Below, piece by piece: positions 54,300 through 57,263 of a DNA stretch of 64,000 nt (within the stretch, counting starts at the first letter, position 1; every line of letters starts with the position of its first letter). The position numbers and the translations under genes are program-made. Source of the DNA: Fusobacteria bacterium ZRK30. GTDB taxonomy: Bacteria; Fusobacteriota; Fusobacteriia; Fusobacteriales; Fusobacteriaceae. The notes beneath the pieces were generated by a model. It did not search any database. It was not told where the DNA came from and was given only the letters and a program-made list of their open reading frames with translations. Location: assembly GCA_024628785.1 (NCBI GenBank), contig CP102405.1:992001-1056000 (forward strand), given 5' to 3'.

Positions 54300-55262
54300 C
54301 TATATCAATCCTACTGCTTTCTTAACTTCTACCATCTTAGCTCTTGCAATTGCACTAGCTTTTTCAGCACCTTCAGCTAGTATTTTATCTACATATTCAG
54401 GGTTAGCTACTAATTCTTCACGTTTAGTTCTTGCTTCTGCAAAATGCTCCAGGATAGCTTCTAAAAGTTCTTTTTTAGCATGACCATATCCGTAGTTACC
54501 AGCTCTAAATTTTTCCTTCATCTCTTCTAATTTTTCAGGTGTAGCGAATAATTTATACAGGGTAGTTACATTGTTATCCGGGTCCTTAGGATCCTCTAAC
54601 GGTGTAGAATCAGTTACAATACTCATTACCTGCTTTTTTAATGCTTTTTTAGATGCAAACATATCGATGGTATTACCATATGATTTTGACATCTTAGCTC
54701 CGTCTACTCCGGGAACCACAGCTGTACTCTCGACAATCATAGGTTCAGGAAGCTTGAAAGTTTCAGTGTATTTCTCATTGAACTTTGTAGCGATGTCACG
54801 GGTCATCTCCAGATGCTGTTTTTGGTCTTTTCCAACTGGAACCATATCTACATCATACATTAAGATATCCGCTGCCATAAGTACCGGATATGTAAATAAT
54901 CCTGTATTAGATGAGATACCACGAGCACTCTTATCTTTAAAAGAATGACCTCTCTCTAAAAGTGACATTGGAGTAAGATTTGATAAAACCCACATAAGCT
55001 CTGTATGTTCCGGTACATGAGACTGGATGAAGATACTGGCTTTTGCAGGATCTACTCCTAATGCTAAGTAGTCTAAAACTACATCTCTGGTATTTTTACG
55101 CAGTGCATCTGCATCTGTAGAAGATGTAAGAGCATGGTAATCTGCTACGAAGAAGAGACAGTCGTTTTCTTCCTGGAATTTGATAAATTGTTGTATTGCA
55201 CCAAAATAGTTTCCTATATGTAAGATTCCACTTGGTTGTATTCCTGATATTATTTTTTTCAT
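54300..55262 (-). CDS. trpS: Tryptophanyl-tRNA synthetase
   Basis: A 320-residue class Ic synthetase, normal for bacterial TrpRS-I. GIQPSGILHIGNYFGAIQQF at residues 6-25 holds the HIGH-equivalent (HIGN), PVGKDQKQHLEMTRDIA near 143 contributes to Trp/ATP binding, and GAKMSKSYGNTID near 190 is the KMSKS loop. It charges tRNA-Trp in the cytoplasm. GGAGGG precedes the ATG. Its long leader carries a Trp-codon leader peptide and an intrinsic terminator that ends 15 bases before the start codon, so expression should fall when charged tRNA-Trp is plentiful. Confidence 0.97.
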   Translation of the reverse strand: MKKIISGIQPSGILHIGNYFGAIQQFIKFQEENDCLFFVADYHALTSSTDADALRKNTRDVVLDYLALGVDPAKASIFIQSHVPEHTELMWVLSNLTPMSLLERGHSFKDKSARGISSNTGLFTYPVLMAADILMYDVDMVPVGKDQKQHLEMTRDIATKFNEKYTETFKLPEPMIVESTAVVPGVDGAKMSKSYGNTIDMFASKKALKKQVMSIVTDSTPLEDPKDPDNNVTTLYKLFATPEKLEEMKEKFRAGNYGYGHAKKELLEAILEHFAEARTKREELVANPEYVDKILAEGAEKASAIARAKMVEVKKAVGLI

Positions 55263-55277
55263 GGTTCCCTCCTATAA

Positions 55278-55306
55278 TAAAAAAAGACCAGTCGAGATGA
55301 CTGGTC
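55278..55306 (-). terminator. Attenuator terminator in the trpS leader
   Basis: GACCAGTC (55306-55299) and GACTGGTC (55293-55286) form a perfect 8-bp stem on the minus strand, followed by seven T. It lies between the leader peptide and the trpS ribosome site. A competing hairpin TTTAATT-cta-AATTAAA lies just upstream at 55354-55338. Confidence 0.9.
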
Positions 55307-55390
55307 AAGTATATATGTTTTTCCTCTGATTCCATATTTTAATTTAGAATTAAAGGATAAAAAAGATATTACTATTGATTAGACGTCAAT

Positions 55391-55459
55391 CTACTTAGAT
55401 GAAACAGTATTAAAATTATTAGATAAATTTCTCCACCACCAAGTAAATCTTTTTGACAC
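55391..55459 (-). CDS. Trp-codon leader peptide of trpS
   Basis: A 22-codon frame starting at GTG 55459 after AAGGAGGTAGCTATT, a very strong ribosome site. It encodes MSKRFTWWWRNL followed by SNNFNTVSSK and TAG. Three consecutive TGG codons in a 22-residue peptide are very unlikely by chance. Position between a consensus promoter and an intrinsic terminator before trpS makes it a trpL-like leader peptide controlling the synthetase gene by ribosome stalling. Confidence 0.88.
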   Translation of the reverse strand: MSKRFTWWWRNLSNNFNTVSSK

Positions 55460-55493
55460 AATAGCTACCTCCTTTATAGATTATTTTAGATAA

Positions 55494-55522
55494 ATGATAC
55501 CTTTTTTAGATGGGAATGTCAA
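55494..55522 (-). promoter_or_regulatory. trpS leader promoter
   Basis: Minus-strand -35 TTGACA (55522-55517), 17-base spacer, -10 TATCAT (55499-55494). It starts immediately after the stop codon of the upstream glycosidase frame (55524), and the leader-peptide start codon is 34 bases beyond the -10. Confidence 0.85.
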
Positions 55523-55523
55523 C

Positions 55524-57263
55524 TTATTTAGGGCTATATTTCTCTTTTTTTCCAGTTTCATGATCTAAAATAATAAGGGATTGTTTTTTTATTTTTTCCC
55601 CATTATAAAATTTATCAGTGGTAGAATAATTCGTTATGATACTGTATCTCTTTCCAAATTCAGTTTTTTGGAGTGTGTTGTCACTAGATAGATATTTAAA
55701 ATTAGTCATAGGTAGTTTTACCAAGATTTTATGCCATTTAGAGAAAAAAACTGCATGGGGAACTATATATTTTTTGTCCCTCTTCCAAATCCTTCTATCC
55801 AGATGATATAAAGGTGGGATATTATATGAAATTTCCATAAGGTAAGTGTTTTTTCTTTGACCTTTAAACTTTAAGCTTCCCATTGTCCAGTGGTGTGTTG
55901 TTATAATAGAATCATTGTAAACCAATTGGTATAAAGGAAGATTAAATTTATTATTAAAATAAATATAGGAATAGATATCTTTTAATGGAACCTCTTTTTC
56001 AAATAAAGCAGGAACTCCTCCAGTAGGAGAGTAATATTTTCCCAGATAATACTTTGAAGTTTTATTTTTACGGAGATCTTTGTCTCCCCATCCAAACAAA
56101 GGTCTTGTCATTCCGTGAGCAAAATCAATATATTTACTTGAAAATCCCATTCCATTTTCAGACCCTAAAACCATATTATAATTTTTAGAAATATAATTCA
56201 TTTTTTTTATCCTAGCATTCATGTCATCTTTTTGTGTAGACATCCTGCTTGGAGTATAATCATTGTGAAATTCACCAGTAGCATCTACATCTAAAAACCA
56301 TGAATTAATCTCCATACCATTGCTTAAAATTTTATCTATTCGATCTTTTATTAAGGGTATTGTGGTAGATGGATTTAATTTTCTACCTGTCTGCTGGAAC
56401 CCCTTAATTTTTTTACCATTTTTGTCTGTAATAGTATCGTTGTTATAGGCATTTTGATTATTGAATTCAACTGTTGACCATGCTTTATCTCCAGGTTTGA
56501 CAATTGTATGATATGAATCGTAGACACCTATCAGATACCCCATCTTATTTGCTCGCTTAACAACGTCAGGGTTACCAATAGTATAGAGGTCGTTATTGTC
56601 TCCCAGCCAAGCCTTGTCTATATTATTATTTTTAAGTTCCGTTAAAATATAGTTAGATACACCATCTCCAAAACTGTCCACGGGATTTAAATATTCTTTA
56701 TATCTATTATAAAATTCATATTTATTTTTTAAAATTTTATCACTGTCAGTGAATTGTTTTGGATACTGGAGTAAGTTTTTTTGTTCCAAAGAATGATTTA
56801 TCCCCTTTATAAAAATATTTGTATTGTAGCTATGGTATTGCTTTATTTCAGTTTTTAAATTATTTATAAACTCATCTTTTTCATCATAATTTTTTAGTCC
56901 GGAGTAGATTTTTATAGCAATATTATTCTCTTTAATCTTTAAATCTTTTTTAAAGGCCTGATATAGCCCTTTAGGATCTTTTACATTTTCTGGAGAGATC
57001 ACTCCTAATCCCCATAGATAAAAATGAGAAGCCCCGTATAATTTTTTTATGTTAGGATTTATTTGTGCCTTTTCTTCCAATGTTTTAAATTTTTTATTTT
57101 TGATCAGTAAATTTCTATATGTAGCAGTGATCGCTTTGATATCTTTAGGCAATATATAAATACTAAAAGATATAGTTTTTGGAGCTTCCATAATAGGGAA
57201 GGTGTGGGTGAGGTTAAACTGTATATCCTGTAAATTTATAGGTATTATTAAAGATATTTCCAA
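55524..57263 (-). pseudogene. C-terminal part of a frameshifted secreted glycosidase-like gene
   Basis: A 579-codon frame overlapping the upstream frame by 50 bases; it has no ribosome site, and its apparent start is inside the upstream coding sequence. The protein resembles TIM-barrel glycoside hydrolases: MGYLIGVYDSYHTIVKPGDKAW, MEINSWFLDVDATGEFHNDYTP with a candidate catalytic Asp, and YNMVLGSENGMGFSSKYIDFAHG with a candidate Glu. This suggests a GH101-like or DUF5696-like enzyme, but the family is not certain. Removing one T from the GTTT near 57223 would join both frames through TVNLTHTFPIMEAPK. It is either a true mutation, a programmed shift or a sequence error. Confidence 0.65.

Follow-up and report, generated by a model that had tools for sequence, protein, structure and literature searches.

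A tryptophan-codon leader upstream of trpS in Psychrilyobacter, predicted to be a trp-type attenuator copied from a trpX leader

In E. coli, the trpL leader controls trpEDCBA by means of tandem Trp codons, a 1:2 hairpin, a 2:3 antiterminator and a 3:4 intrinsic terminator, the choice between these structures depending on the ribosome. Attenuators have also been described at the synthetase genes pheST, leuS and cysS (pheST is named in PMC1262725, and uORFC-8-2 in PMC8632094), and a passage of PMC4833913 cites Lopatovskaya et al. 2010, a comparative survey of attenuation at synthetase genes. For trpS itself, a candidate attenuator was reported for trpS2 of Streptomyces avermitilis (PMC1262725), trpL2 lies upstream of trpS in S. 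lividans TK24 (PMC8079986), and ribosome profiling in Caulobacter crescentus revealed a small CDS before trpS, for which the relevant passage states no mechanism (PMC4117421). The first-pass annotation of our locus had set leader peptides, classic for trp biosynthesis operons, against T-boxes, which govern trpS in many bacteria; given the Streptomyces and Caulobacter leader ORFs, this contrast is less sharp than it was drawn. Since such trpS leaders are known, as are attenuators of other synthetases, the mechanism proposed below is not new. A search of the open literature, whose scope did not extend to the survey of Lopatovskaya et al. 2010, where an earlier prediction is possible, returned no trp or trpS leader from Fusobacteria; neither this phylum, nor the three-gene regulon, nor the history of duplication appears to have been reported in the literature searched.

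The trpS leader analysed here is found in a genome of Psychrilyobacter (Fusobacteriaceae), the nearest named record being a Psychrilyobacter MAG with 90% TrpS identity. From its sequence and from modelling, we propose, with a probability of about 0.87, that it works as a classical ribosome-mediated (trp-type) transcription attenuator and arose by duplication of the trpX attenuator of the same genome, and that these two together with the trpE attenuator make up a three-member Trp regulon. All features lie on the minus strand of the window (the whole 64,000-nt stretch of DNA that was analysed), in the order promoter, strong Shine-Dalgarno (SD) sequence, 22-codon ORF, intrinsic terminator and trpS, and sequence reading and profile searches recovered each of them as first annotated. 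The trpS gene (54300..55262) encodes a tryptophan--tRNA ligase of 320 aa (TIGR00233 and PF00579; 328.7 bits against TIGR00233, for a cut-off of 176.75), and is the only close match of its kind in the genome. A consensus scan placed a sigma-70-type promoter, TTGACA-17-TATCAT, at 55494..55522 (TTGACA at 55522-55517, a 17-nt spacer, TATCAT at 55499-55494). It fits the consensus at 11 of 12 positions and is the best promoter match within 2.5 kb; the scan yielded 14 promoter-like sites for 11.5 expected, and the trpS promoter taken alone is not significant. Both hexamers are recognisable in relatives G054, G055, G056 and G057. Upstream of this promoter lies a gene (55524-57263, minus) matching PF11308 (Glyco_hydro_129, GH101-related) with an E value of 8.8e-111.

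The leader SD, AAAGGAGG (55468..55475, seen in sequence and fold), precedes an ORF with a GTG start (55391..55459), which reads (M)SKRFTWWWRNLSNNFNTVSSK followed by the stop codon and contains three tandem Trp codons, TGGTGGTGG (55433..55441), as control codons. After a spacer of 84 nt comes the terminator, GACCAGTC-ATCTC-GACTGGTC plus seven T (55279..55306), made of an 8-bp GACCAGTC/GACTGGTC stem (55306-55286) and a 7-U tract (55285-55279); it was found by scan and is kept in G054, G055, G056 and G057. The terminator ends 16 nt before the trpS ATG (55262), and trpS has a second SD of its own in this interval, on the same transcript as the leader.

Folding and pair counts define the segments between which the switch would operate. 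Region 1 (GATTTACTTGG, 55439..55449) is a partner of region 2 (TCTAAGTAGATTG, 55387..55399), which overlaps the leader stop codon and can pair either with region 1 or with the 5′ arm of the terminator, the latter contact running through 55391-55387. Region 2′ (TCAATAGTAATATCTTTTTT, 55358..55378) forms the upper part of the antiterminator or else pairs with the leader SD. In the folds, an apical hairpin (55322..55357) tops the antiterminator, and region 3 (55299..55321) is its 3′ strand, which contains the terminator 5′ arm GACCAGTC (55306-55299). The "short hairpin" first annotated between ORF and terminator can be equated either with this apical hairpin (55357-55322) or with a weak one at 55390-55374, and has its place as the head of the antiterminator.

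The mechanism that we propose is as follows. RNA polymerase would start near 55487, and a ribosome would presumably begin at the GTG and translate the 22 codons. When charged tRNA-Trp is scarce, it would halt on the three Trp codons and cover region 1. This would free region 2, located at the leader stop and immediately past it, to pair with the terminator 5′ arm, GAUUG/GACUG with CAGUC and then UCAAUAGU..AUAU with AUAU..ACUUGA, and polymerase would read through into trpS. When charged tRNA-Trp is plentiful, the ribosome would either cover region 2 while at the stop codon, or depart and let the 1:2 helix form; with region 2 covered or so paired, the terminator would fold and no trpS would be made. 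Extra TrpRS thus appears, from sequence and simulation, to be made only at low charged tRNA-Trp.

The elements and the ribosome logic are those of E. coli trpL; the gene controlled is trpS instead of trpEDCBA. The peptides are unrelated, with no similarity past WWR; the Psychrilyobacter leader also has a long spacer, in which there is an additional apical hairpin, and an SD that can be sequestered. With the Streptomyces trpS leaders, which belong to another phylum, it shares a Trp-codon leader peptide upstream of trpS and a proposal of attenuation; S. lividans trpL2 (MMTRTCTQLWRAA) differs in having a single Trp codon, in being leaderless and in having hairpins with no U-rich tract after them. 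The likeness to the C. crescentus case is the small leader CDS on the trpS mRNA. The pheST and cysS leaders likewise combine a synthetase gene with ribosome-mediated attenuation by cognate codons, for other amino acids and in other phyla.

The fold of the whole leader was more stable than all 200 of 200 dinucleotide shuffles (z −4.0). In the untranslated RNA, region 1 (GAUUUACUUGG, the last codon of which is the first Trp codon) forms a helix with the sequence of region 2 at the stop codon, and 55377-55358 pairs with the leader SD. The 1:2 helix counts 11 bp in the minimum-energy fold, and 95.5% of its cells are paired over four species; for the 2:3 antiterminator (GAUUG/GACUG with CAGUC plus a long upper stem), the corresponding value is 93.9%. 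Slid versions of the two structures gave 34-53% paired, against 95% and 94% for the real ones. Among these four close relatives, no two-sided compensatory changes were found in the 1:2 or 2:3 helices; both covariation and a shuffle control on the pair columns are uninformative for this set. When the RNA up to a ribosome sitting on the Trp codons was removed, region 2 paired with the terminator 5′ arm in the fold, and a ribosome at the stop codon covered the closing helix of 2:3. The mutually exclusive antiterminator called for by the first annotation was thus found; in the folds it responds to ribosome position, and each of the genus's four leaders retains it (4/4).

To express this response as a number, we computed by partition-function simulation the mean probability that the terminator 5′ arm is paired while its 3′ arm has yet to be made. 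For the window, it was 0.19 in untranslated RNA, 0.64 with the ribosome on the Trp codons and 0.22 with the ribosome at the stop; the values for relative G055 were 0.19, 0.78 and 0.22, and those for G057 0.32, 0.81 and 0.20. The switch was robust to ribosome footprints of 9-18 nt. In each of the three leaders, 0 of 400 dinucleotide shuffles reached the observed switch; these are not three independent tests, because the statistic was chosen after the folds had been seen and the leaders are related. The closing helix of 2:3 is just 5 bp long, and in the window it contains a G-U pair. In addition, the stalled minimum-energy fold of the window has a slightly shifted register near the stop, with G-C and C-U pairs at 55385-55382, which makes its closing pairs less certain than those of G055 and G057. 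The terminator wins at equilibrium whatever the state, and therefore the switch must be kinetic.

The trpS leader has relatives in its own genome. All 32 occurrences of TGGTGGTGG in the 3.6-Mb genome were read in frame, and only those at trpS and trpE belong to a short, RFTWWW-type leader ORF. The trpE leader peptide, MIRFTWWWKSDNSTNKIALTRGPGLGNKSIY followed by a stop, is succeeded by two tandem terminators and then by trpE (L200/L248, G000:C2 near 2152.9 kb, minus), and in the antiterminator predicted for it, the GGACCAGGUUU region is the partner of the terminator arm AGCCUGUUC. Treated by the same method, this leader gave 0.21 untranslated, 0.99 stalled and 0.05 at the stop. A third leader (L261, G000:C2:1939737-1939833) encodes MSKRLTWWCKNESNKFNTELLSRSVFDQ followed by a stop, and lies before a gene for a TrpX-type ABC substrate-binding protein (NF041285, 282.8 bits, below the cut-off of 390). 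From the −10 region to region 2, the trpS leader shares about 80% DNA identity with this trpX leader (genome-wide E 2.3e-16), which is why we regard it as a duplicated copy, and the two peptides are homologous. The trpX peptide of Psychrilyobacter reads WWC, its third control codon now being Cys. By comparison with trpX, the trpS leader has undergone a frame shift: its stop is now AAG-TAG, and the old stop position remains as CAATAG. The trpX leader of genus g14, VSKRFTWWWQNLSITQFNKPLLSRSGFDQ followed by a stop, likely represents the ancestral form. Taken together, the sequences make copying of the importer (trpX) attenuator the most likely origin of the trpS element. A search of a plasmid collection gave no relative of the trpS leader. 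Between the trpX leader and trpX (L260, L261 and L272), a hairpin GATGCAACGTCACGTTGC with a T-run has one and the same sequence in two genomes of Psychrilyobacter and in g14, another genus, and is better conserved than its flanks.

Leaders of the RFTWWW or KFTWWW type before trpE or trpX are also present in Ilyobacter-like, Fusobacterium-like and g11 genomes. The trpX and trpE leaders found in Fusobacteriaceae share the RFTWWW-type peptide, the promoter and the SD with the trpS leader; they differ from it in that region 2 lies inside the ORF and the stop codon further downstream, and many are followed by two tandem terminators. Most of them produced the same ribosome-position switch, often a stronger one, with about 0.9 stalled and 0.1 at the stop for most trpX leaders of other genera. 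For Psychrilyobacter's own trpX leaders and for the Ilyobacter-like trpE leaders, the simulated switch was weak or absent. If the proposal is right, trp-type leader-peptide attenuation extends to the Fusobacteriota, and a single tRNA-charging signal would act within one genome at three levels of Trp supply: biosynthesis (trp operon), import (trpX) and loading onto tRNA (trpS). The trpS attenuator, as a copy of an importer attenuator, would then be an instance in which the duplication of a cis-acting RNA switch, and its re-tuning to a second gene, can be traced.

We examined conservation in six genomes of the genus from which trpS was recovered, the window's included, which leaves five relatives (G054-G058). 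The leader is kept in 3 of the 5, one of them with WW in place of WWW, and its frame is without indels in all three. The predicted conservation of WWW frame and terminator was borne out in G054 and G055, where the promoter is retained too, and only in part elsewhere: G057 kept the frame and the terminator, with WWG and nine amino-acid changes, and G058 (L007) lacks the whole element. A terminator with no leader ORF, the pattern that the first-pass annotation had named as contrary to its proposal, occurs once, in G056 (L005, a 62%-complete MAG). There, promoter and terminator are present, and a deletion took out the ORF along with region 1 and the core of region 2. On these grounds it has the appearance of a lineage-specific loss of the switch, or else of a fault in the MAG, more than of evidence against the switch in other genomes. 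The same locus carries a tandem duplication of about 55 nt repeating the U-tract, the SD and the first ten trpS codons, for which an assembly fault is possible. Compared with the window, its two nearest relatives differ at 1 and 3 of the 69 ORF positions, 6 and 11 of the 84 spacer positions, and 0 and 1 of the 21 terminator positions. The natural variants among these close relatives (WWW, WW, deleted) could serve for testing the switch.

The absence of the leader in G058, and the two Trp codons and nine amino-acid changes of G057, make the trait patchy. Together with the ORF deletion in G056 and the weakness of the 5-bp closing helix in the window, this patchiness is what could be expected of a decayed or weakly functional attenuator, i. 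e. a recent copy of the trpX leader with basal read-through and little Trp response. We hold this to be improbable: the window and its two closest relatives all have an undamaged WWW, frame, SD and terminator, their ORFs differ at no more than 3 of 69 nt, and the predicted switch exceeds that of every shuffle.

Two other readings of the ORF are far less probable still, and to a similar degree. In having a short leader with Trp before a gene related to Trp, the locus recalls TnaC, where the nascent peptide arrests the ribosome in response to free tryptophan. TnaC needs a Pro-stop at the end of the peptide, and ours ends in VSSK and stop; codon stalling is the better fit for a run of three Trp codons, for the intrinsic terminator and for pairing dependent on ribosome position, and induction of trpS by excess Trp would make little sense. 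The SD of trpS on the leader transcript could also suggest that the ORF works through translational coupling or reinitiation at trpS, to which the 128 nt separating the leader stop from the trpS ATG, with a strong terminator in between, are opposed.

Finally, we searched for other regulators. No T-box was matched with Rfam in the whole window, nor in 20 trpS loci of the family, and the sole T-box-like match in the genome (L140, G000:C1:493452-493626; 74.1 bits, under the Rfam cut-off of 93) precedes a gene identified by eye as asparaginyl-tRNA synthetase-like. The genome has no match to TRAP (PF02081; the B. subtilis control was positive) and no family match to TrpR (the positive control worked). 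A tRNA-sensing T-box or a protein-binding, TRAP-type attenuator accompanied by a chance ORF is the least probable of all readings: T-boxes are usual at synthetase genes of Firmicutes and one such element may exist in this genome, but none is matched in the window, genes for TRAP and TrpR were not found, and homologous Trp leaders precede trpE and trpX. The earlier suggestion that trpS is controlled by ribosome stalling at Trp codons is favoured by the modelled folds, the homologous trpE and trpX leaders, and the lack of TRAP and TrpR matches in the genome and of a T-box match at trpS.

A second, unrelated type of trpS leader was observed in the family. In the Ilyobacter-like g9, in g14 and in part of g6, the leader peptides end in WWC, WWF or WWNN, and at L009, L014, L027, L112, L116 and L124 the WW lies one or two codons before the stop. 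Folding predicts a relay of hairpins, in which a stalled ribosome leads to 1:2 and to pairing of 3 with the terminator arm, and a ribosome at the stop leads to 2:3. This prediction is clear for L112, L124 and L014, and partial for L009 (from the second Trp codon). L027 and L116 showed no relay switch at equilibrium, and because of these two the relay model is kept as a lead only. An ORF scan of the trpS loci of Leptotrichiaceae and more distant Fusobacteriota found no Trp leader. We tentatively suggest, at somewhat less than even odds, that trpS of Fusobacteriaceae gained ribosome-mediated attenuation at least twice and by two RNA logics. Psychrilyobacter would have copied the trpX attenuator, with the frame shortened and a new stop inside region 2. 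In the Ilyobacter-like, g14 and some Fusobacterium-like (g6) genomes, a ribosome held on the WW just ahead of the stop would allow 1:2 to form and free 3 to block the terminator, and its further movement by two or three codons would favour 2:3 and termination. In two g6 genomes (L127 and L129), as at L005, trpS is preceded by a promoter and a terminator, here CCTGTGACTTCACAGG, and by no leader ORF, and at L013 one control codon has changed from TGG to TGA.
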